DNA of 41,587 nucleotides, from NCBI GenBank assembly GCA_035540635.1, contig DATLGH010000086.1, positions 1 to 41,587 on the forward strand, given 5' to 3'. The stretch comes from Egibacteraceae bacterium (GTDB lineage: Bacteria; Actinomycetota; Nitriliruptoria; Euzebyales; Egibacteraceae). This document shows positions 29,238 through 40,416 of the stretch, piece by piece; the first letter of the stretch is position 1; every line of letters begins with the position of its first letter. Below the pieces are notes generated by a model. The model saw nothing but the letters and a program-made list of their open reading frames with translations. It was not told the DNA's origin and made no database searches. The position numbers were made by a program, and so were the translations under genes.

Positions 29238-29957
29238 TTACGCGGGAAAGGCGTACAGGGCGGTGGCGAAGCCGGCGACGGCCGCGAGGAAGCCGCTGCC
29301 GAGCAGCGCGGCAACGCGCCGCCGGACGGCCTCGACCTCCGCGACCTCTGCCTCCTCGTCGACGAACTCGGTGCGCGTCGGCGCGGGCGGCGCCGGCGGC
29401 GGAGCGGGCGGCAGTTCGGCGAGGGACACGTCGAGGACCGACGGCGGCGGATCGTTCCAGGACAGCAGGGCGCCGAGGGCCGATTCGAGCTCGCCGACCG
29501 AACCGTTCAGGAGCGGCGGGGACGTGGGGGCTGGTGCGCGGACGCCGGGGCCAGGCGCGGCGGCGGTCGCGAAGGCCGGCTGGACGGCGGCTTCCCAGGC
29601 GAGGACCTCGTCGTAGGGGTGCGCGAGGTGATCGTCTGCCGGGGTGGTCGCGGGGACGACCGTCTGCACGGCCATCGGCGGCGGACCGGCGAGGGGGCTG
29701 CCCGCCGGCGCGGGGTCGGCGACGGGGCTCACCGCGATGGGCGCGGGGTCGGCGACGGGGCTCACCGCCGTGTGCTCATGGTCGGGCACGGGGCTCACCG
29801 CCTCGACGACCGGCTGGTGACTGGTCGCCGGACGTGGCGATGCGACCCGGTGACCGAGGAGGCAGCGCCCGTCGGGACCCACCGTCACCGTCGTCCCGCA
29901 CATGCGGCAGCGGCGCGCGTCGATGTTCGTCTTACCCTTGCGCTTGCGGATCGTCAT
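29238..29957 (-). CDS. Zn-knuckle-like, Pro-rich single-pass membrane protein
   Basis: A 239-residue protein of unknown function. The N-terminus is basic (MTIRKRKGKTN) and has a CRMC...C...H arrangement (about 17-36) that could bind zinc. A long Pro/Ala-rich stretch follows, with an 11-residue repeat around AVSPVADPAP (bases ~29709-29800, 33-bp unit). A charged helix EEAEVAEVEAVRRRVAAL leads to a single C-terminal transmembrane helix (~218-236), which suggests a tail-anchored protein facing the cytoplasm. GGGAG about 7 nt upstream supports the ATG at 29957. It diverges from menG. Confidence 0.7.
   Translation of the reverse strand: MTIRKRKGKTNIDARRCRMCGTTVTVGPDGRCLLGHRVASPRPATSHQPVVEAVSPVPDHEHTAVSPVADPAPIAVSPVADPAPAGSPLAGPPPMAVQTVVPATTPADDHLAHPYDEVLAWEAAVQPAFATAAAPGPGVRAPAPTSPPLLNGSVGELESALGALLSWNDPPPSVLDVSLAELPPAPPPAPPAPTRTEFVDEEAEVAEVEAVRRRVAALLGSGFLAAVAGFATALYAFPA
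29709..29800 (-). repeat. 33-bp coding repeat in the Pro-rich protein
   Basis: About two and a half copies of a 33-bp unit encode repeats around AVSPVADPAP. Adjacent copies are nearly identical at the nucleotide level, which suggests recent in-frame expansion. Confidence 0.6.
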
Positions 29958-30068
29958 GGTCGCTCCCGTGTGTCCGAAGGCTCCTCCGCCAGCATCGGCA
30001 CGTCGGGTGCTGAACTTGAGGCGATGGTGGCCCGCCCTCGCGTGGACGCCCGCCTTTGCGACCCCGCC

Positions 30069-30074
30069 TAGACT
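30069..30074 (+). promoter_or_regulatory. -10 box of the menG leader ORF
   Basis: TAGACT ends 8 nt before GTG 30083. Transcription would start at or next to that GTG. The identical hexamer is used ahead of the 72-residue gene and at 30892. No good -35 is visible. Confidence 0.4.
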
Positions 30075-30082
30075 GCGCGCCC

Positions 30083-30145
30083 GTGACCGCCGTCCGCTGC
30101 CTCACCGGCGCCCCCCGCCCCGGCGCCGGCCACCGTCGGGCGTGA
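30083..30145 (+). other. 20-codon leaderless leader ORF of menG
   Basis: GTG 30083 to TGA 30143-30145 encodes M-T-A-V-R-C-L-T-G-A-P-R-P-G-A-G-H-R-R-A. The stop overlaps the menG GTG (30142) as GTGA. menG has no Shine-Dalgarno sequence, so its translation may depend on this ORF. The length (20 codons), layout and upstream TAG-type -10 box match the menC leader at 21173. The peptides themselves are not alike, so the act of translation may matter rather than the peptide. Confidence 0.45.
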
Positions 30146-30858
30146 CCGTGCTCCCCGACCCGCGTCCGGGCCCCGAGAAGCAGGCCGCGCTCGTCCAGCA
30201 GATGTTCGACCGGGTCGCGCCGCGCTACGACCTCGCGAACAGCGTGCTCTCGCTCGGCCAGGACCGCCACTGGCGCAGGGTCACCGTCGCGGCGGTCCGT
30301 CCCCGGCCGGGGGAGGTGATCCTCGACGCGGCGGCCGGCACGGGGCCGCTCGCCGCCGAGCTCGCGGCCGCCGGCGCCTCGGCCATCGCGCTCGACTTTA
30401 GCTGGAACATGGTCCGCACCGGGGCGGAGCGACAGCGTGACCGCGGGCTGCTGTGGTGCAACGGCGACGCGACCCGCTTGCCGCTGGCCGACGGCGCGGT
30501 GGATGCGGTCACGATCGGGTTCGGGCTGCGCAACCTGCCCGACACGTCGGCGGGCCTGCGGGAGCTGGCCCGCGTCACCCGCCCCGGTGGGCGCCTCGCC
30601 GTGCTCGAGTTCAGCACGCCGGTGTGGCCGCCGTTCGCCGCCGTCTACACCCGCTACCTCACCCGCCTGCTGCCGCTCATGGCCCGCTTCGTGACGAGCG
30701 ACCCGGCCGCCTACCGCTACCTCGCCGACTCGATCCGGGCATGGCCCGACGCCGACGGCCTGGCCCGACGGATCGCGGACGCCGGCTGGACCGGCGTGCG
30801 CTACAAGCGGCTGTCCGGAGGCATCGTCGCCCTCCACCACGCCCTGCGCGCCCGCTGA
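30142..30858 (+). CDS. menG: Demethylmenaquinone methyltransferase
   Basis: A 238-residue SAM-dependent UbiE/MenG methyltransferase, the last step of menaquinone synthesis. Signatures are MFDRVAPRYDLANSVLSLGQDRHWRR (about 21-46), the SAM-binding loop ILDAAAGTGPLA, FGLRNLPDTSAGLRELARVTRPGG (about 130-153) and YRYLADSIRAWPDADGLA near the C-terminus. GTG 30142 was preferred to GTG 30148 because of the GTGA overlap with the leader ORF. It sits apart from the other men genes but directly ahead of the MenJ-like reductase, which would act on its product. Confidence 0.95.
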   Translation: MTVLPDPRPGPEKQAALVQQMFDRVAPRYDLANSVLSLGQDRHWRRVTVAAVRPRPGEVILDAAAGTGPLAAELAAAGASAIALDFSWNMVRTGAERQRDRGLLWCNGDATRLPLADGAVDAVTIGFGLRNLPDTSAGLRELARVTRPGGRLAVLEFSTPVWPPFAAVYTRYLTRLLPLMARFVTSDPAAYRYLADSIRAWPDADGLARRIADAGWTGVRYKRLSGGIVALHHALRAR

Positions 30859-30869
30859 CACGCCCATTG

Positions 30870-30897
30870 TTGCAGCACCGGAGGCCGCATCTAGACT
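30870..30897 (+). promoter_or_regulatory. Promoter upstream of the menJ-nuo genes
   Basis: TTGCAG (30870-30875) as -35 and TAGACT (30892-30897) as -10 are separated by 16 nt, one of the better promoter pairs in the window. The expected transcription start (~30904) falls within the Rex-like operator. A second TAGGCT (30952-30957) could be another -10 closer to the gene. Confidence 0.5.
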
Positions 30898-30902
30898 GAG
30901 GC

Positions 30903-30920
30903 TTGAGAAATTCTTCACAA
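30903..30920. promoter_or_regulatory. Rex-type redox operator
   Basis: TTGAGAAATTCTTCACAA matches the Rex consensus TTGTGAAnnnnTTCACAA at 13 of the 14 defined positions. The one change is T to A at position 4. It covers the predicted transcription start of the promoter at 30870-30897, where bound Rex would block initiation. Rex is known in Streptomyces to repress nuo, cyd and hem genes when NADH is low. Here the downstream genes are menJ and nuoA-H. No rex gene is in the window. Confidence 0.6.
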
Positions 30921-30987
30921 GGCACCTCCCTGTGCACCGCCGCGACCCGGGTAGGCTGCCGTCACGACCGACCCCGCTTCCGGGAGC

Positions 30988-32319
30988 ATGTGTGCGATGA
31001 CCGTCGAGCAGCACCGTGGAGGGCGGTCGATGACCCGCCGGCCGTCGGGCGGGGTGACGCACGCCGACGCCGTCGTCGTGGGGGCGGGACCGGCCGGTTC
31101 GGCGGCGGCGACGTTCCTCGCGCAGGCCGGCCACGACGTCGTCCTGCTCGAAAAGGAGCGGTTCCCCCGCGTGAAGGTGTGCGGTGACGGCCTCACGCCC
31201 CGGGCGGTGAAGGCGCTGCGCGCGCTCGGCCTCGACGACGAGGCAGAGGGTGGGGTCGAGGGCTGGGACCGTCAGCAGGGGCTGCGCATGTACGGCGGGG
31301 GAGTGGTCCTCGACCTGCCGTGGCCCGAGCTCGACAGCTGGCCGTCGCACTCGCTCACCGCGACGCGCGAGCTGTTCGACGAGACCCTCGCCCGCAACGC
31401 GGTCAAGGCGGGGGCGCAGCTGTGGGAGGAGACGGAGGTGACCGGGCCGGTCTACCTCTCGGGTGCGCACCGCCGCGTCGCGGGAGTGACCTACCGGCGC
31501 GGGAGCGCCGCGGGGGGGACGGACGCGACGGGGACGATCCGCGCACCGATCGTGCTCGCGGCCGACGGCGGGTCGTCACGCCTCGCCGTGCAGCTCGGCC
31601 TCCACCGCGACCGCAGCCGCCCCATGGGGGTGGCCGTGCGGGCCTACTATCGCGCGTCGCGCCCGCTCATCGGGATGATGGAGGGCTTCCTCGACCTGGA
31701 GCGCGACGGCGAGCTGCTGCCCGGCTACGGCTGGATCTTCCCGCTCGACGACGGGCTGCTCAACATCGGCTGGGGCCTACTCAACACCTCCGAGCACTTC
31801 CGGTCGACGAACTACCGCAAGACCCTCGACGAGTGGGTGAGCGGCTTCCCGCCCGAGTGGGGCGTCAGCAAGGAGACGATGGTCGGCAGGCCCCGCAGCG
31901 CGGGGCTGCCGATGGGGCACAACCGGCGCCCCCCGGTCTACAAGGGCGTCATGCTGGTCGGCGACGCCGCCGGCATGGTCAACCCCTTCAACGGCGAGGG
32001 GATCAGCTACGCGATCGAGGCCGCGGCCCTCGCCGCCGAGGCGGCCGACGTCGCCATCGAGCGCCGCTCGGACGAGCCGCTCGGGGCGTACGAGCGCGGT
32101 GTCGACGGCGCCTGGGGCAGCTACTACGCGATGGGCCGCATGTTCGTCGACCTCATGGGGCATCCGAGGGTCATGCGCTTCTGCGTCGAGTTCGGTATGC
32201 CGCGCCGGCGGATCATGCTGTTCGTCTTCCGGCTGATGGCCCACCTCACCAACACGCAGACACGCGACAACGCCGACCGCGTCATCCACGCCCTCGAGCG
32301 GGTGGTTCCCGCGCGATGA
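30988..32319 (+). CDS. menJ: Geranylgeranyl reductase-family flavoprotein, probable MenJ
   Basis: A 443-residue FAD enzyme of the geranylgeranyl reductase family. Motifs are the dinucleotide-binding VVVGAGPAGSAAATFLAQ (about 27-44), VKVCGDGLTPRAVKAL (about 61-76), LPGYGWIFPLDDGLLNIG and the FAD-contacting GDAAGMVNPFNGEGISYAIE (about 330-349). These closely follow mycobacterial MenJ, which saturates the beta-isoprene unit of menaquinone. Its place between menG and nuo supports that role over lipid geranylgeranyl reduction. Three in-frame ATGs are possible (30988, 30997, 31030). GGGAG at 30982 best fits 30997, so the first three residues are uncertain. The stop lies in a 21-bp tandem repeat. 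Confidence 0.88.
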   Translation: MCAMTVEQHRGGRSMTRRPSGGVTHADAVVVGAGPAGSAAATFLAQAGHDVVLLEKERFPRVKVCGDGLTPRAVKALRALGLDDEAEGGVEGWDRQQGLRMYGGGVVLDLPWPELDSWPSHSLTATRELFDETLARNAVKAGAQLWEETEVTGPVYLSGAHRRVAGVTYRRGSAAGGTDATGTIRAPIVLAADGGSSRLAVQLGLHRDRSRPMGVAVRAYYRASRPLIGMMEGFLDLERDGELLPGYGWIFPLDDGLLNIGWGLLNTSEHFRSTNYRKTLDEWVSGFPPEWGVSKETMVGRPRSAGLPMGHNRRPPVYKGVMLVGDAAGMVNPFNGEGISYAIEAAALAAEAADVAIERRSDEPLGAYERGVDGAWGSYYAMGRMFVDLMGHPRVMRFCVEFGMPRRRIMLFVFRLMAHLTNTQTRDNADRVIHALERVVPAR

Positions 32320-32352: not shown

Positions 32353-32396
32353 GACCGAAGGTGACCGCTTTGGTGCCGTTGCCGGTACCGACCTAG
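32316..32396 (+). other. 26-codon minicistron after menJ
   Basis: ATG 32316 overlaps the menJ stop as ATGA. The ORF runs through the 21-bp repeat and ends at TAG 32394-32396, nine bases before the nuoA GTG. That TAG is also the first half of the predicted nuoA -10 box. Readthrough ribosomes could re-initiate at nuoA. Translation is unproven. Confidence 0.3.
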
Positions 32397-32399
32397 GCT
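32370..32399 (+). promoter_or_regulatory. Promoter of nuoA, leaderless
   Basis: TTGGTG (32370-32375) and TAGGCT (32394-32399) are separated by 18 nt. The -10 ends exactly 6 nt before GTG 32406, which has no Shine-Dalgarno sequence. The complex I genes can therefore be transcribed from a leaderless nuoA start as well as from the Rex-linked promoter upstream of menJ. Confidence 0.55.
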
Positions 32400-32405
32400 G
32401 CACGC

Positions 32406-32774
32406 GTGTTGCTCGTCGACTACCTCCCCATCGCGATCCTCTTCGCCCTTGCCTTCGGGTTCGTCGGCGTCTCCGTGGCGGTGTCGAGCCGCCTCGGACC
32501 GAACCGTCCGAACCCCACGAAGGAGGCCGCCTACGAGTCAGGGATCATCCCCGAGGAGGAGACGAACGTGCGGGGAACCCGCTTCCCGGTGAAGTTCTAC
32601 CTCGTCGCCATGCTCTTCATCATCTTCGACGTCGAGGCGATCTTCCTCTTCCCCTGGGCCGTGGTCCTCCGCGACCTCGGGTGGTACGGCTTCGGTGTGA
32701 TGGCCGTCTTCATCGTCCTGTTGTTCGAGAGCTACTACTACGTCCTGCGCCGTGGAGGCCTTGAATGGGACTAG
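32406..32774 (+). CDS. nuoA: NADH-quinone oxidoreductase subunit A
   Basis: A 122-residue, three-helix membrane subunit of complex I. The conserved loop after helix 1, [42 protein letters not shown] in outline, includes the invariant YESG, the FxVKFYL stretch and the acidic FDVE in helix 2. This loop lies near the quinone site. The GTG start follows a -10 box by 6 nt. The last 10 bases overlap nuoB. Confidence 0.95.
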
Positions 32775-33352
32775 AGACGAGGCTGCCGAGCGGCATCCTG
32801 CTCACGAGCGTCGAGAAGTTCGTCAACTGGTCGCGCGCCGGGTCGCTGTGGCCGGCGACGTTCGGCCTCGCGTGCTGCGCGATCGAGATGATGTCGACCG
32901 GGGCGGCCCACTACGACCTCGCGCGCTTCGGCATGGAGGTGTTCCGCGCGTCGCCCCGCCAGTCCGACCTCATGATCGTCGCCGGACGCGTGAGCCAGAA
33001 GATGGCCCCCGTCGTCCGCAACATCTACGACCAGATGGCGGACCCCAAGTGGGTCATCGCCATGGGCGTGTGCGCGTCGACCGGCGGCATGTTCAACAAC
33101 TACGCGATCGTCCAGGGCGTCGACCACATCGTGCCCGTCGACATGTACGTGCCGGGCTGCCCTCCGCGCCCGGAGATGCTCATGGACGGCATCGTGAAGC
33201 TGCACGAGAAGATCAGGAACGAGCAGTTCGTGGAGCGCCCCCGCAAGGGCGAGTCGATGGAGGACTTCCGCCGCCGCACCGGCTGGGCCGATCCCGTCCC
33301 GGCGGACGAGTCGCAGATCTCCTCGGCGAGCCCCGGAGGTGCCGGGCGGTGA
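32765..33352 (+). CDS. nuoB: NADH-quinone oxidoreductase subunit B
   Basis: A 195-residue peripheral-arm subunit carrying cluster N2, the last electron carrier before quinone. The four N2 ligands are visible: the tandem pair Cys37-Cys38 in [10 protein letters not shown], Cys103 in GVCASTGG and Cys132 in PGCPPRPE. The ~45-residue C-terminal tail after KLHEKI is polar and variable. ATG 32765 lies inside the end of nuoA, and the TGA overlaps the nuoC GTG (GTGA). Confidence 0.96.
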
Positions 33353-34002
33353 GCGACAACCCCCGGATGGCGCACCCCGACACCGCGGCTGCGGAGCGGG
33401 CGCACCTCATCGAGCACGCCATCGAGCCGCAGCTGTCCGAGCGGCTCGCCCGCGTGCGCGACCGCATCGTCGCGCGGTTCGACGACCTCGAGGTCGCCGG
33501 CTTCCGCGGCGAGCTCACCCTCGTCGCCGAGCCCGGCCGCATCGTCGACCTCCTGCGGTTCTGCCGGGACGACCCGGAGCTGCGCTGTGAGCTGCTCGCC
33601 GACCTGTCCTGGGTGCACTGGCCGGGCGGCGTGCACCGGCGCATCGCGCAGGAGACGACCGGCTGGCCGATCTACGAGGAGGTGGTCGAGCAGGGGCGCA
33701 TCGAGCTCGACTACGTCCTGTACTCGGTCACCCACAACCACCGCCTGCGGGCGCGGGTGTACCTGCCCGACGAGGAGCCGGAGATCGCGAGCGTCACCGA
33801 CCTCTACGCCTCGGCGAACATGATGGAGCGGGAGGCCTTCGACATGGTGGGCGTGCGGTTCACCGGCCACCCCAACCTCGTCCGGGTGCTCATGCCTGAC
33901 GACTGGGAGGGCCACCCTCACCGCAAGGACTACCCCCTCGGCGGCGTCGACGTCCAGTACAAGGGCGCGGTCGTCCCCCCACCCGACCAGCGGCAGTACT
34001 AG
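33349..34002 (+). CDS. nuoC: NADH-quinone oxidoreductase subunit C
   Basis: A 217-residue peripheral-arm subunit of the 30-kDa family. The diagnostic C-terminal region is present: [21 protein letters not shown] in outline, then [26 protein letters not shown]. It is a separate protein, not fused to NuoD as in E. coli. GTG 33349 overlaps the nuoB stop and has GGAGG (33335-33339) 9 nt upstream. A 46-bp gap to nuoD holds a 12-codon minicistron. Confidence 0.95.
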
Positions 34003-34013
34003 AGAGTGTCCTC

Positions 34014-34052
34014 ATGACCCTCAGGCAGCGGCGCGTCAGGGAGCCCCGGTGA
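34014..34052 (+). other. 12-codon minicistron between nuoC and nuoD
   Basis: ATG 34014 opens 11 nt after the nuoC stop. The twelve codons read [12 protein letters not shown]. Its TGA (34050-34052) overlaps the nuoD GTG (34049) as GTGA. An AGGGAG inside the mini-ORF could also serve nuoD directly. Translation is unproven. Confidence 0.35.
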
Positions 34053-35362
34053 GCGACACGACCCGGCCCCGCAACGAGCTCGAGCCTCGCCACGAGTACA
34101 CCGTCGTCTCCGGCGAGTGGCAGGACCTGCCCGAAGCGGTGCCCGACGACCTCATGATCATCAACATGGGCCCGCAGCACCCGTCGACGCACGGGGTGCT
34201 GCGCATGGTGCTCACCCTCGACGGCGAGACCGTCGTCGACAACCAGCCGGTCATCGGCTACCTCCACACGGGGATCGAGAAGAACGCCGAGTACCGCCCC
34301 TGGGTGCACGGGGTGACGTTCGTCACCCGCATGGACTACCTGTCGCCGCTGTTCAACGAGCTCGGCTACTGCCTCGCCGTCGAGCGCCTGCTCGGCATCG
34401 TCGACGACGTGCCCGAGCGCGCGCAGGCAATCCGCGTGATCATGACCGAGCTCAACCGCATCTCCAGCCACCTCGTGTGGCTCGCGACGACCGGTATGGA
34501 GCTCGGCGCCATCAGCGCCATGATCTACGGCTTCCGGGAGCGCGAGGCCATCCTCGACATCTTCGAGTTCGTCACCGGCCTGCGGATGAACCACGCGTAC
34601 ATCCGTCCCGGGGGTCTGCAGGCCGACGTCCCCGAGGACTTCGCCGACCGGGTCCGCGTCGTGCTCGCCGACATGCCCAAGCGCATCGGCGAGTACGAGG
34701 ACCTCCTCGGGGAGAACCCCATCTGGCTCGAGCGCAACGTCGGGGTCGGGGTCCTGTCCGTCGAGGAGTGCCTCGACCTCGCCGTCACCGGCCCCGTGCT
34801 GCGCAGCGCCGGAGTCGCACACGACCTCCGCAAGGCCGCGCCCTACTGCGGCATCGAGCAGTACGACTTCGCGATCCCCACCGCCGACACGTGCGACGCC
34901 TACGGGCGCTACCTCATCCGCCTCGCCGAGATGCGCGAGTCGCTGGGGATCGTCGAGCAGGCCCTCGACAGCCTGCCGACCGGTCCCGTCATGATCGCCG
35001 ACAAGAAGATCGCCTGGCCCGCCCAGCTCGGCCTTGGGCCGGACGGGCTCGGCAACACGAAGGCGTACGTCGACAAGATCATGGGCCAGTCGATGGAGGC
35101 CCTGATCCACCACTTCAAGCTGGTGACGGAGGGGTTCGTCGTCCCCCGCGGGCAGGTGTACACCGCCATCGAGTCGCCGCGGGGCGAGCTCGGCTACCAC
35201 GTGACGTCCGACGGCACGAACAAGCCCTACCGGGTCCGCGTGCGCGACCCGTCCTTCATCCACATCGGCACGCTGCCCCGCCTCACCCGGGGGCTGCTCA
35301 TCTCCGACGTCATCGCCGCCGTGGCGAGCATCGACCCCGTCATGGGCGGGGTGGACCGGTGA
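34049..35362 (+). CDS. nuoD: NADH-quinone oxidoreductase subunit D
   Basis: A 437-residue 49-kDa-type subunit that forms the quinone-binding cavity with NuoB. It shows [15 protein letters not shown] (about 32-46), [14 protein letters not shown] with the conserved His/Glu, [11 protein letters not shown], and the C-terminal [15 protein letters not shown] and [10 protein letters not shown]. The length and motifs are normal. GTG 34049 has AGGGAG 6 nt upstream and overlaps a minicistron stop. The stop overlaps the nuoE GTG. Confidence 0.96.
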
Positions 35363-36204
35363 CGTTCTCGGCGGAGCTGAGGGAGCGGGCGCTCGAGCTC
35401 GTGGGGCGGTATCCCGTCGGACGCAGCGCGCTGCTGCCGTTGCTGCACCTCGTGCAGGTCGAGGACGGCTATATCTCGCCGGAGGGGATCGCCGCGTGCG
35501 CCGAGCTGCTCCGCCTCACGAAAGCCGAGGTCGGCGCCGTCGCGACCTTCTACTCGATGTACAAGCGCGAGCCGCTGGGGGAGCATCTCGTCAGCGTGTG
35601 CACGAACTTCTCGTGCAAGGTCCGCGGCGGCCAGGAGGTCTACGACCGGCTGTCCGACAAGCTCGGCGTCGGCCACAACGGCACGACGCCGGACGGCACG
35701 TTCACCCTCGAGCACGCCGAGTGCCTCGGCAACTGCGAGGGGGCGCCGGTGGTGAGCGTCGACTACCTGAACTACGAATGCGTGTCCGCCGACGCGGCCG
35801 AGAAGCTCGTCGACCGGATCGCCGCCGGCGACGTGCCCCCGCCCACGCGCGGGATGGTCCCGCCCGGTGTGCGGACCGTGAGCTACCGCCTCGCCGGGCT
35901 GGGGCCCCGCGACCCGTCGATGCCCGGCGCACCGAGCAGCCACGCGCGCGCCGACGACGGGGCGGTGCCGCAGCCCGACGCCGGCCCGGGGGTCACCCCC
36001 GTCACGGTCGAGCCGTCGCTGTCGGACGCCGACATCGCCGAGCGCGCGGAGGCCCGCCGGCAGGTCCGCGAGGCCGGCTACGGTGACGAGGCCATCGAGG
36101 GCGAGGCCGGTCCGCGCTCGCGGGAGTTCCCCACACGACCGCAGGAGGGCGACCCGATCATCGACGACCCCACCCACCCCGGCCCCTCCGGGAAAGACCG
36201 ATGA
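35359..36204 (+). CDS. nuoE: NADH-quinone oxidoreductase subunit E with C-terminal extension
   Basis: A 281-residue subunit of the NADH dehydrogenase module. The thioredoxin-like [2Fe-2S] domain occupies ~1-165, with ligands Cys81 and Cys86 (CTNFSC) and Cys122 and Cys126 (CLGNC). The family is usually about 160-240 residues. Here ~115 extra residues, Pro-rich and acidic, follow with no recognised domain. GTG 35359 overlaps the nuoD stop. The stop overlaps an ATG (36201) that opens a repeat-built minicistron, so the link to nuoF is unusual. Confidence 0.94.
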
Positions 36205-36404
36205 GCCGGCAGGTGCATGCCTCGGCCGCCGCCCAGGCGGCCAGCCCATCCCGGAGGGATCATGCCTCGGCCGCCGCCCAGGCGGCCAGCCCATCCCGGA
36301 GGGATCATCCCTCGGCCGCCGCCCAGGCGGCCAGCCCATCCCGGAGGGATCATCCCTCGGCCGCCGCCCAGGCGGCCAGCCCATCCCGGAGGGATCATGC
36401 CTGA
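36201..36404 (+). other. 67-codon repeat-built minicistron bridging nuoE and nuoF
   Basis: ATG 36201 overlaps the nuoE stop (ATGA). The ORF crosses four 45-bp repeats, giving four copies of the 15-residue unit HASAAAQAASPSRRD (HPS in the last two), and stops at TGA 36402-36404 just inside nuoF (ATG 36397). The repeat length is a multiple of three, so expansion keeps this ORF open. It has the stop/start layout of the shorter minicistrons elsewhere in the window. It may be translated as a coupling device or be a by-product of the repeat. Confidence 0.4.
36216..36395 (+). repeat. Four 45-bp tandem repeats carrying ribosome binding site and start codon
   Basis: Units at 36216-36260, 36261-36305, 36306-36350 and 36351-36395 are identical except for one position: units 1 and 2 begin CATGCCTCGG, units 3 and 4 CATCCCTCGG. 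The first seven bases of a fifth unit hold the nuoF ATG (36397). Each unit contains a hairpin GGCCGCC/GGCGGCC and then ATCCCGGAGGGAT, in which the GGAGG ribosome binding site sits inside a small palindrome. In the nuoF frame the units read MPRPPPRRPAHPGGI, so ATGs at 36217 and 36262 are in frame with nuoF, while those of units 3 and 4 are mutated to ATC. Confidence 0.9.
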
Positions 36405-37737
36405 GCCCGTCAGCGTGCTGACCCAGCGCTACACCGTCGAGGACGCCCACACGCTCGACGGGTACACGCGCACGGGGGGCTACGACGCCCTGCGCGAGGC
36501 GCTCGGCACGGCCCCCGAGAACCTCGTGCAGCTGGTCAAGGACGCGGGTCTGCGCGGGCGCGGCGGCGCGGGTTTCCCCACCGGGGTGAAGTGGGGTTTC
36601 GTGCCGAAGGACACGGGCAAGCCCGTCTACCTCGTCGTGAACGCCGACGAGGGGGAGCCGGGGACGTTCAAGGACCGCGAGCTCATGGAGCGCGATCCCC
36701 ATCAGCTCATCGAGGGGATGATCATCTCCTGCTGGGCGCTGTCGAGCCACCGGGCGTTCATCTTCCTGCGGGGCGAGTATCTGTGGTCGGGGATACGCCT
36801 CGAGGAGGCCATCGCGGAGGCCTACGGCGCGGGCTACCTCGGCAAGGACGTCCTCGGCGGCGGGTTCGACTGCGACATCACCCTGCACTACTCGGCGGGC
36901 GCGTACATCTGCGGCGAGGAGACCGCCCTGCTCGACGGGCTCGAGGGGCGCCGCGGCCAGCCGCGGCTGCGCCCGCCGTTTCCCGCCGTCGCCGGGCTCT
37001 ACGCATGCCCGACGGTGGTCAACAACGTCGAGACGATCGCCAACGTCCCCCACATCGTGTCCCGGGGCGTCGAGTGGTACCGCTCGATGGGCACGGAGAA
37101 GTCGCCGGGCCCGAAGCTGTTCTGCGTGTCGGGCGAGGTCGTGCGGCCCGGCAACTACGAGTGGCCGCTCGGCACCCCCGCCCGCCAGATCCTCGAGGAG
37201 TCCTGCGGGGGCATGCTGGAGGGCCGGGCGTTGAAGTTCTGGGCCCCCGGCGGGTCGTCGACCCCGCTGCTCACCATCGAGCACATCGACGTCGGCATGG
37301 ACTTCGAGTCGGTCATGGCGGCCGGTTCGCTGCTCGGCACGACCGCCATGATGATGTACTCGGCGCAGACCAGCGTCGTCGACGCGTGCCTGAACTGGAC
37401 CCGGTTCTACGAGCACGAGTCGTGCGGGAAGTGCACCCCTTGCCGGGAGGGGACGTTCTGGCTCGCGCAGATACTCGAGCGCATCCTCCACGGTCGTGGC
37501 ACGAAGCAGGACATCGACATCCTCGACGACGTGTGCGACCAGATCTTCGGCCGCTCGTTCTGCGCGCTGGGGGACGGGGCGACGAGCCCGATCAAGTCCG
37601 CCCTGAAGTACTTCCGCGACGAGTTCGAGCACCTCGTCGAGCACGGCCGCCTGCCCGAGGGCGTGACGACCGCGCACGCCGGCGTCGTGACCGACAACAG
37701 TGGGCGTCACCGCCCGACCCTCTTCGGAGCCGCCTGA
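36397..37737 (+). CDS. nuoF: NADH-quinone oxidoreductase subunit F
   Basis: A 446-residue subunit that binds NADH, FMN and cluster N3. It shows GLRGRGGAGFPTGVKWGF (about 49-66), NADEGEPGTFKDRELMERDPH in outline for FMN, GAGAYICGEETALL-like SAGAYICGEETAL, and the [4Fe-4S] ligands in ESCGKCTPCREG (about 346-357) with a later Cys (~398). ATG 36397 has GGAGGG 5 nt upstream and matches the normal family start. In-frame ATGs at 36217 and 36262 in the repeat would add 60 or 45 Pro/Arg-rich residues. Whether they are used is unknown. Confidence 0.94.
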   Translation: MPEPVSVLTQRYTVEDAHTLDGYTRTGGYDALREALGTAPENLVQLVKDAGLRGRGGAGFPTGVKWGFVPKDTGKPVYLVVNADEGEPGTFKDRELMERDPHQLIEGMIISCWALSSHRAFIFLRGEYLWSGIRLEEAIAEAYGAGYLGKDVLGGGFDCDITLHYSAGAYICGEETALLDGLEGRRGQPRLRPPFPAVAGLYACPTVVNNVETIANVPHIVSRGVEWYRSMGTEKSPGPKLFCVSGEVVRPGNYEWPLGTPARQILEESCGGMLEGRALKFWAPGGSSTPLLTIEHIDVGMDFESVMAAGSLLGTTAMMMYSAQTSVVDACLNWTRFYEHESCGKCTPCREGTFWLAQILERILHGRGTKQDIDILDDVCDQIFGRSFCALGDGATSPIKSALKYFRDEFEHLVEHGRLPEGVTTAHAGVVTDNSGRHRPTLFGAA

Positions 37738-37740
37738 CCC

Positions 37741-40416
37741 ATGGCCGACGTCACCTTGACGATCGACGGCAAGGAGATCACCGTCCCGGTGGGGACGCTC
37801 GTGATCCGCGCCGCCGAGCAGCTGGGCATCACCGTGCCCCGGTTCTGCGATCATCCCCTGCTCGACCCGATCGGCGCCTGCCGCCAGTGCATGGTCGAGA
37901 TCGAGGGTCAGCGCAAGCCGTTCACCGCGTGCACGACCCAGTGCACCGACGGCATGGTCGTGAGCACGCACTGGACGTCGGACGTGGCGGCGGCCGCGCA
38001 GCAGGCGCAGCTCGAGTTCCTCCTGCTCAACCACCCGCTCGACTGCCCCCAGTGCGACAAGGGCGGCGAGTGCCCGCTGCAGGACCAGACGCTCGCTCAC
38101 GGTCCGCCCGACAGCCGCATGCTCGACCGCAAGCGGCGCTATGAGAAGCCCCTCCCGATCTCGACGCAGATCGCCCTCGACCGCGAGCGCTGCGTGCTCT
38201 GCGCACGGTGCACGCGCTTCTCCCAGCAGATCTCGGGCGACCCGTTCATCGAGCTTTTCGAGCGCGGCGCTCTCGAGCAGGTCGCCATCTACCCCGACGA
38301 GCCCTACGACAGCTACTTCTCCGGCAACGTCGTGCAGATCTGCCCGGTGGGGGCCCTCACCGCCACGAGCTACCGGTTCAAGGCCCGCCCGTTCGACCTG
38401 CGCACCTTCGAGGGCGTGTGCAACCAGTGCAGCGCCGGCTGCAACCTGCGCGTCGACGTCCGCCGCGGTGAGATCCAGCGCCAGCTCGCCCGCGACAACA
38501 TGGCGGTCAACGAGTCGTGGAACTGCGACAAGGGCCGCTTCGGTTTCGAGTTCGTCGCCCACGCCGACCGTCTGCGCGAGCCCGCTGTGCGTGACCGCAA
38601 CGGTGACCTCGCCCCGACGTCGTGGGTGACCGCGCTCCGGCGTGCCGCGGCCGGGCTGTCCGCCGCGCTCGAGGCCGGTGGCGGGCAGGCGGTCGGTGTG
38701 CTCACCGGTGGGCGGGTCACCGACGAGGACGCCTACGCGGTGAGCCGGTTCGCACGCGACGTCCTCGGCACCGACAACGTCGACTTCCGCCTGCGCCCCC
38801 GGACCGACGCGGAGCGCGACGTCCTCGCGGCGGTGTCGGGCACCGTCGGACCGACCTACGACGACGTCGAGGCCGCCGACGTCGTCGTCGTCGTCGGCCT
38901 CGACCCCGAGGAGGAGGTGCCGATCCTCTTCCTGCGGCTGCGCAAGTCCTGGCGCAGGCGCGCGCAGCGCATCATCGCGGTGGGGCCCGTTCTCGGGTCG
39001 CTCGAGGAGATCGCCTGGCGCTGGGTGCGCACCGGCGCCGGGCAGGAGGGCGGCGTGCTGAGCGCCCTCGCGGCAGCCGGCGACCACTCCGCCGACGGTG
39101 AGCTCGCCGACGTCGAGGAGGCGCTCGCGGGGGCCGGCGGGGCCGTGGTGCTCGCCGGTGAGCGCCTGGCTCTGTCGCCCGGAGCGTTGCCCGCCGCCGC
39201 GCGCCTCGCCCGCGACCGCGGCTTCGGGTTCGCCTGGGTGCCCCGGCGCAACAACGCCCGGGGGGCCGTGGACGCAGGCCTCCTGCCGGGCCTGCTGCCC
39301 GGCGGCCGGCGCCGCACGTCCCCCGGACCGGTGGCCGAGTCCTGGAACCGGCTGCCCGGGGCCGACGGCCTCGACACCCGCGGCATGCTCGAGGCCGCCG
39401 CCGCGGGTGAGCTGAAGGCCCTCTACCTCGTCGGCGTCGACCCGGCCCGCGACTTCGAGGACCCCGCCCTGGCGGCGCGGGCCCTCGAGCGTGTCGACAC
39501 CCTCATCGTGCAGGACCTCCTGCCGACCGCCTCGATCCGCCACGCCGACGTGGTGCTGCCGGCAAAGGCGGGGCAGGAGCGCGTCGGCTCCTACACCACC
39601 TGGGAGGGCCGCCGCCAGCCCTTCCCGCAGGCGGTGCCGGCCCAGGGCCTCGGGCAGGAGGACTGGGACATCGTCGGCCAGCTCGCGCGGGTGCTCGGCA
39701 CCGACCTGGGCTGGCAGCGCGCCGAGGACGTGCGGCGGGAGGCCGCGCCGCTCATGGCGATCGACGAGCCCGCCCTCGAGCGACTCGGGGATCCCGAGGT
39801 CCCGCCTCCGACGTCGCCCGCGTCGGCGGACGACCCGGGGGGCGACGCCGTCACCGACGGGTTCGGTGTGGTGATCCTCGACGCGCTCATCGGCGAGGGC
39901 AGCATGCTGCTCGGGGCCGGGACGCTCCGCGCCTCCGCGCGCCCCCCCGCGGTGCTCGTCAACGAGGCGGACGCGCGACGCATCGGGCTCGGCCACGGCC
40001 AGCTCGTCGCCGTCGTCGGCCCGGGGGGACGCCTCGAGCTGCCAGCCAAGGTCACCGGGTACATCACCTCCGGGGTCGTCGGCCTTCCCGGCAACTCGAC
40101 CGCCCAGCCACCCACCACCCTGCGCGACCCCGACGCCCCCGCGCACGAGCCGCTGCGGGTGCGCCTGGAGCCGGGCGCCGGCACAGGCCCCGTCGACCGC
40201 CCCGCCCCGCAGCAGCCGAGCGCGTACCTCGAGACGGAGCGCAAGCGGTCGGCGGCCGCCGGCCCGCCCCCAGCCCCTTTCCCGCCTCCCGCACCCGGGA
40301 CGGTGGTGGAGCCGGCGGAGGTCGGTGATCTCGGCAGCCGGGGCAGCGGTCCGGAGGAGGCAGGCTCCGGCGAGCAGCCCACGGACCGACGACCCGACCG
40401 GGGGGGCAACGCCTGA
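37741..40416 (+). CDS. nuoG: NADH-quinone oxidoreductase subunit G
   Basis: An 891-residue iron-sulfur subunit. The N-terminal domain carries a [2Fe-2S] site (Cys36, 47, 50, 64), the His/Cys cluster HPLDCPQCDKGGEC (about 98-111) and a [4Fe-4S] site CVLCARC with a later CPVGAL. A further set CNQCSAGC plus WNCDKGRF (about 224-265) matches cluster N7, which is present in only some bacteria. The rest is a molybdopterin-oxidoreductase-like domain without cofactor function in this family. The last ~75 residues form a Pro/Gly-rich tail. ATG 37741 follows nuoF by 3 bp. The stop overlaps the nuoH ATG. Confidence 0.95.
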   Translation: MADVTLTIDGKEITVPVGTLVIRAAEQLGITVPRFCDHPLLDPIGACRQCMVEIEGQRKPFTACTTQCTDGMVVSTHWTSDVAAAAQQAQLEFLLLNHPLDCPQCDKGGECPLQDQTLAHGPPDSRMLDRKRRYEKPLPISTQIALDRERCVLCARCTRFSQQISGDPFIELFERGALEQVAIYPDEPYDSYFSGNVVQICPVGALTATSYRFKARPFDLRTFEGVCNQCSAGCNLRVDVRRGEIQRQLARDNMAVNESWNCDKGRFGFEFVAHADRLREPAVRDRNGDLAPTSWVTALRRAAAGLSAALEAGGGQAVGVLTGGRVTDEDAYAVSRFARDVLGTDNVDFRLRPRTDAERDVLAAVSGTVGPTYDDVEAADVVVVVGLDPEEEVPILFLRLRKSWRRRAQRIIAVGPVLGSLEEIAWRWVRTGAGQEGGVLSALAAAGDHSADGELADVEEALAGAGGAVVLAGERLALSPGALPAAARLARDRGFGFAWVPRRNNARGAVDAGLLPGLLPGGRRRTSPGPVAESWNRLPGADGLDTRGMLEAAAAGELKALYLVGVDPARDFEDPALAARALERVDTLIVQDLLPTASIRHADVVLPAKAGQERVGSYTTWEGRRQPFPQAVPAQGLGQEDWDIVGQLARVLGTDLGWQRAEDVRREAAPLMAIDEPALERLGDPEVPPPTSPASADDPGGDAVTDGFGVVILDALIGEGSMLLGAGTLRASARPPAVLVNEADARRIGLGHGQLVAVVGPGGRLELPAKVTGYITSGVVGLPGNSTAQPPTTLRDPDAPAHEPLRVRLEPGAGTGPVDRPAPQQPSAYLETERKRSAAAGPPPAPFPPPAPGTVVEPAEVGDLGSRGSGPEEAGSGEQPTDRRPDRGGNA

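Follow-up and report, generated by a model that had tools for sequence, protein, structure and literature searches.

The stretch of DNA analysed here (the window, 41,587 nucleotides) belongs to an Egibacteraceae genome of 3.46 Mb, which is assembled in 110 contigs and is 96.5% complete. It carries a gene for an FAD reductase of the GGR family, followed by genes of respiratory complex I (nuo), and a Rex-type inverted repeat stands ahead of them. The features of the locus are as follows.

29902 to 30858, plus strand: demethylmenaquinone methyltransferase (UbiE/MenG) within an open frame ahead of the promoter; domain from residue 92 (profile search)
30870 to 30875, plus strand: weak candidate -35 box TTGCAG, 16 nt before the -10 box (read from the sequence)
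30892 to 30897, plus strand: -10 box TAGACT, ending 5 nt before the operator (TANNNT placement conserved in relatives)
30903 to 30920, plus strand: Rex-type operator TTGAGAAATTCTTCACAA, one mismatch at half-site position 4 (consensus match, matrix score, conservation in orthologous loci)
30988 to 32319, plus strand: GGR-family FAD reductase, first gene after the operator (TIGR02032, 223.7 bits, over the cut-off)
32406 to 32774, plus strand: nuoA (profile search)
32765 to 33352, plus strand: nuoB (profile search)
32752 to 34002, plus strand: nuoC, within an open frame matched by NuoC over residues 248-415 (profile search)
34049 to 35362, plus strand: nuoD (profile search)
34117 to 36204, plus strand: nuoE, within an open frame matched by NuoE over residues 415-600 (profile search)
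36217 to 37737, plus strand: nuoF (profile search)
37741 to 40416, plus strand: nuoG (profile search)

The gap between GGR and nuoA is 86 nt in the window and holds no predicted terminator. In the congener (G134), only 11 nt separate the GGR match from nuoA, which fits a single transcript. The first-pass annotation had called the reductase menJ, a name that we do not retain: with the MenJ model of NCBIfam (NF045655) the gene scores 214.7 bits against a cut-off of 700 bits, and a GGR paralogue on contig C3 scores nearly the same (205.2 bits). That Rex controls quinone side-chain reduction and complex I jointly, as was also proposed, is nonetheless plausible from the neighbouring UbiE/MenG gene.

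The 18-bp inverted repeat TTGAGAAATTCTTCACAA differs from the Rex consensus TTGTGAANNNNTTCACAA by one base, T4 to A, at base 30906, and the 13 other specified positions of the consensus are intact. It is the sole match with three or fewer mismatches in the 41.6 kb searched, where 0.05 would be expected, and shuffled sequences gave any such match in 5 cases out of 100. Scored with a matrix derived from the orthologous sites, it reaches 24.1 bits, and the runner-up place in the window 16.1 bits. The single departure from the consensus had been noticed in the first pass and is exact; what has to be corrected is its weight, since position 4 of the half-site, where it falls, is of the most strongly constrained kind. 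The A+T-rich island described there is likewise real, with a GC fraction of 0.40 over 30890-30919 vs 0.63-0.80 in the adjacent windows outside the operator.

The good -35 and -10 boxes claimed for the promoter hold up in part. The -10 box TAGACT is real and conserved in relatives, whereas the -35 candidate is weak and below the threshold of a consensus promoter scan, which reported no promoter. Across 70 loci, TANNNT occurs 57 times at 2-17 nt upstream of the operator, where about one occurrence is expected. A -10 box ending 5 nt upstream, in this conserved placement, puts the predicted transcription start at about 30904, inside the first bases of the operator, so that the operator would span about -1 to +17, in agreement with the overlap proposed earlier. 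In some relatives the -10 box lies 15-17 nt downstream of the operator, which therefore overlaps the -35 region. Two further -10-like boxes, both TAGGCT, are seen at 30951-30956 (before GGR) and at 32394-32399 (just before nuoA), and may be extra promoters free of the operator. The former is also present in the congener, and the latter is not conserved. A second promoter at 30951-30956 was considered, and no convincing -35 box was found for it.

A single rex gene is present in the genome (PF06971 and a CoA_binding domain, E 1.1e-17), and the absence of rex, named beforehand as grounds for rejecting the operator, did not materialise. The protein has DNA-binding and nucleotide-binding domains with a GxGxxG motif, its nearest solved structures are all Rex, and it is 48% identical to Thermus Rex. 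In the alignment with the latter it keeps the base-contacting residues Arg50, Lys51, Arg62 and Gly63, the equivalents of which in Thermotoga maritima Rex are Arg48, Lys49, Arg60 and Gly61 (PMC8836258). It also has an alanine at the position equivalent to Ala47 of Streptococcus agalactiae Rex (PMC8376106). The gene adjoins hemA/hemC-like genes, as read from translations.

Genome-wide, 22 sites with three or fewer mismatches were found vs 3 for the reversed pattern. The best of them are the window operator, two in tandem ahead of an NDH-2 NADH dehydrogenase gene, and single sites before a WhiB gene, before the gene of a cupredoxin lipoprotein and within a frame resembling ffh. The NDH-2 pair lies 22 bp apart centre to centre (G000:C91:23842-23881; L005 about 1479-1518), and the NDH-2 gene of the congener has a perfect site (L134 about 1539). 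In Streptomyces avermitilis, nuoA1-N1, ndh2 and wblE are under direct Rex control (PMC5355995), and the NDH-2 and WhiB genes found here are homologues of the last two, which are proven targets. The cupredoxin lipoprotein, plastocyanin/azurin-like, is preceded by TTGTGAATCGTCTCACAA (G000:C55:7017-7034; L003 1501-1518) and is not known to be a target in other Rex regulons. Additional copies had been predicted near cydAB and hemA and are absent: the rex-hemA region holds no site with four or fewer mismatches and only a half-site TTGTGAA, so rex is without a full operator, and a cydA gene was sought in the assembly and is absent. Several weaker candidates were set aside. The two-mismatch site on contig C45 lies inside the frame read as ffh and is probably due to chance, and the three-mismatch sites are nearly all in coding frames or without a relevant gene. 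Two sites were judged too weak, namely C81:32778 (15.6 bits), within the gene of a glycosyltransferase and about 0.9 kb ahead of a frame that appears from its translation to be atpB, and C59:4975 (16.2 bits), at the start of a sigma-factor gene.

Conservation of the site was assessed in 80 named loci and 30 loci from close relatives, which together give 98 distinct upstream regions. A site with three or fewer mismatches is present in 76 of these 98 regions vs 0.2% of simulated regions. After duplicates were removed by hand, the operator stands before GGR in about 80 of the 87 distinct loci where nuoA follows GGR (gap <430 nt) vs none of the 14 loci where GGR does not lead nuo. The operator is thus retained in close relatives, the loss of which had been named as a refutation, and its placement before GGR, presented earlier as a variant, is not peculiar to this genome and is usual in Actinomycetota where GGR joins nuo. 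The congener has exactly two perfect sites, one before GGR-nuo and one before NDH-2. As to variation within the site, 35 of the 76 orthologous sites have C at position 2, a symmetric outer change found in whole lineages. The operator takes the form TCGTGAA...TTCACGA in Frankia/Parafrankia (L029, L033, L041, L045, L053, L061, L068, L071 and L076) and in other loci. In a genus of the same order (g12; L109, L111, L115 and L116), GGR is without an operator and is not followed by nuoA in the stretch examined, although rex is present.

The position of the site in certain lineages indicates which gene it serves. Saccharothrix has two perfect sites between GGR and nuoA as well as another, imperfect one near the GGR start, and Lentzea has two perfect sites only between GGR and nuoA; in these genera (L049, L072, L075, L077, L080, L082 and L088) the paired sites are 32 bp apart. 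In a Streptomyces locus (L091), GGR and nuoA are 2.4 kb apart, and the operator TTGTGACCTGCTTCACAT, 2.2 kb after GGR, lies directly before nuoA. These sites argue that the operator belongs to nuo and not to GGR; on this reading of the sequences, GGR would come under the operator when it leads the operon, because transcription of nuo then begins with GGR.

The occurrence of the site also follows the presence of rex. Among 296 evenly drawn Actinomycetota genomes, 219 with rex and 77 without, the exact consensus 18-mer was found in 42 of the former and in none of the latter (Fisher p = 1.6e-6, shared ancestry ignored), and rex was present in all 13 sampled genomes bearing the site. Seven linked loci are without a site before GGR: two are without rex, one has sites before nuoA, and four have rex. 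In these four rex-bearing loci (L024, L026, L028 and L064), no convincing site was found before GGR or before nuoA. A genome of the same order without rex (G039) has no operator. Rex therefore appears to be needed but not sufficient for the operator.

Several other explanations of the site were weighed. That an A+T-rich palindrome arose here by chance might be argued from its single copy in the window, but a site of this quality is hardly expected even once in this length, and the operator occurs at the same place in about 80 relatives, a conservation that already refutes chance; we regard this explanation as practically eliminated. A regulator of the CRP/FNR family is a more serious candidate, though an improbable one. 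In form, the operator core cannot be told from a CRP site, TGTGA-N6-TCACA having the same half-sites and spacing, the genome encodes at least one clear CRP-type protein, and TCGTGAA...TTCACGA is found in many orthologous sites. In the window itself the right half fits this core, and the left half reads TGAGA. Conservation moreover extends beyond the CRP core (T1 in 73, A7 in 73, T12 in 67 and A18 in 71 of 76 sites), and the regulon consists of NDH-2, nuo and WhiB. A site read by CRP should occur independently of rex, but only genomes with rex have the exact 18-mer, even though CRP-type HTHs are present in all 14 control genomes; that rex is needed but not sufficient likewise argues against a CRP-type reader of this core.

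The remaining alternatives concern the mismatch. All 76 orthologous sites carry T at position 4 of the half-site and are invariant at positions 3-6 and 14-16, and with T4 the window operator would score 8 bits more. Moreover, in Staphylococcus aureus an exchange at position 4 was among the strongest losses of Rex binding, and the reporter was derepressed (PMC2883068). The operator might thus be decaying, that is, Rex control was ancestral as in the relatives, T4 to A has abolished useful binding here and nuo is constitutive, possibly through the unregulated TAGGCT boxes. We consider such decay unlikely but a genuine contender. It is opposed by the intact remainder of the site, by the lack of conservation of the TAGGCT box before nuoA, and by srrA of S. 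aureus, the only natural site there with a mismatch at position 4, which still binds (PMC2883068). It is further opposed by the T. maritima TM0201 operator ATTTGAGAAATTTATCACAAAA, crystallised with Rex (PDB 7WB3): its left half, TTGAGAA, is that of the window operator, A at position 4 included, and only positions 11 and 12 distinguish the two sites (PMC8836258). The phylum and the target are different there. The contacts listed for 7WB3 involve the bases corresponding to positions 1, 2, 3, 5 and 6, not 4 (PMC8836258), and in S. agalactiae Rex it is by way of a water molecule that Ala47 contacts position 4 (PMC8376106). The loss in S. aureus, taken together with the T. maritima and S. agalactiae structures, leads us to expect that T4 to A probably lowers affinity, with binding weakened but not abolished, and repression may fall short of that in relatives. 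That a sequencing or assembly error masks a perfect site is a slim prospect: the assembly is in 110 contigs and the site of the congener is perfect, but there is no direct sign of an error, and a difference of one base in 18 is nothing out of the ordinary.

Rex control of the GGR-nuo operon is therefore the best reading. Very probably the 18-mer serves as a Rex operator where transcription of this operon starts, Rex repressing there with NAD+ and being released by NADH. The operator is real, widely conserved in relatives and ordinary in kind, and the one unusual base change here may weaken it. By analogy with characterised Rex proteins, from which binding, repression and NADH sensing are carried over to this genome, a Rex dimer would sit on the operator, over +1, and block RNA polymerase when NAD+ is plentiful. 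When NADH rises, for example at low oxygen, it would make Rex let go and complex I would be made, with the NDH-2 enzyme induced alongside under its own tandem sites and GGR co-controlled because it heads the nuo operon.

The closest known counterpart is the S. avermitilis nuoA1-N1 operator, likewise a Rex-type 18-mer in a nuo promoter, where Rex was footprinted and represses (PMC5355995). The 18-mer of the Streptomyces locus L091 is the same sequence and, unlike here, lies just before nuoA with GGR outside. The S. avermitilis operator spans the -35 region (-42 to -16; PMC5355995), whereas the window operator spans the predicted +1. The cydA1 operator of S. avermitilis, like the window operator, lies at the transcription start or shortly after it (PMC5355995). 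Its target differs, and the assembly here is without cydA.

These observations would extend to Nitriliruptoria the control of complex I by Rex; no Rex paper on that class was found in the literature searched. Earlier comparative work on Rex, reportedly that of Ravcheev in 2012, may already list the GGR-nuo arrangement. Across Actinomycetota, the operator follows nuo, whichever gene stands first. We tentatively propose, at a little short of even confidence, that Rex control of the GGR-nuo operon is old in this phylum, that Streptomyces-like lineages separated the genes while the operator stayed with nuo, that an NADH sensor sets complex I together with a prenyl-chain (possibly menaquinone) reductase, and that the position-4 change here retunes the switch and does not destroy it. 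The prediction is that a quinone-tail or other prenyl reductase would be made in step with complex I, and the window operator offers a natural way to gauge the importance of half-site position 4.
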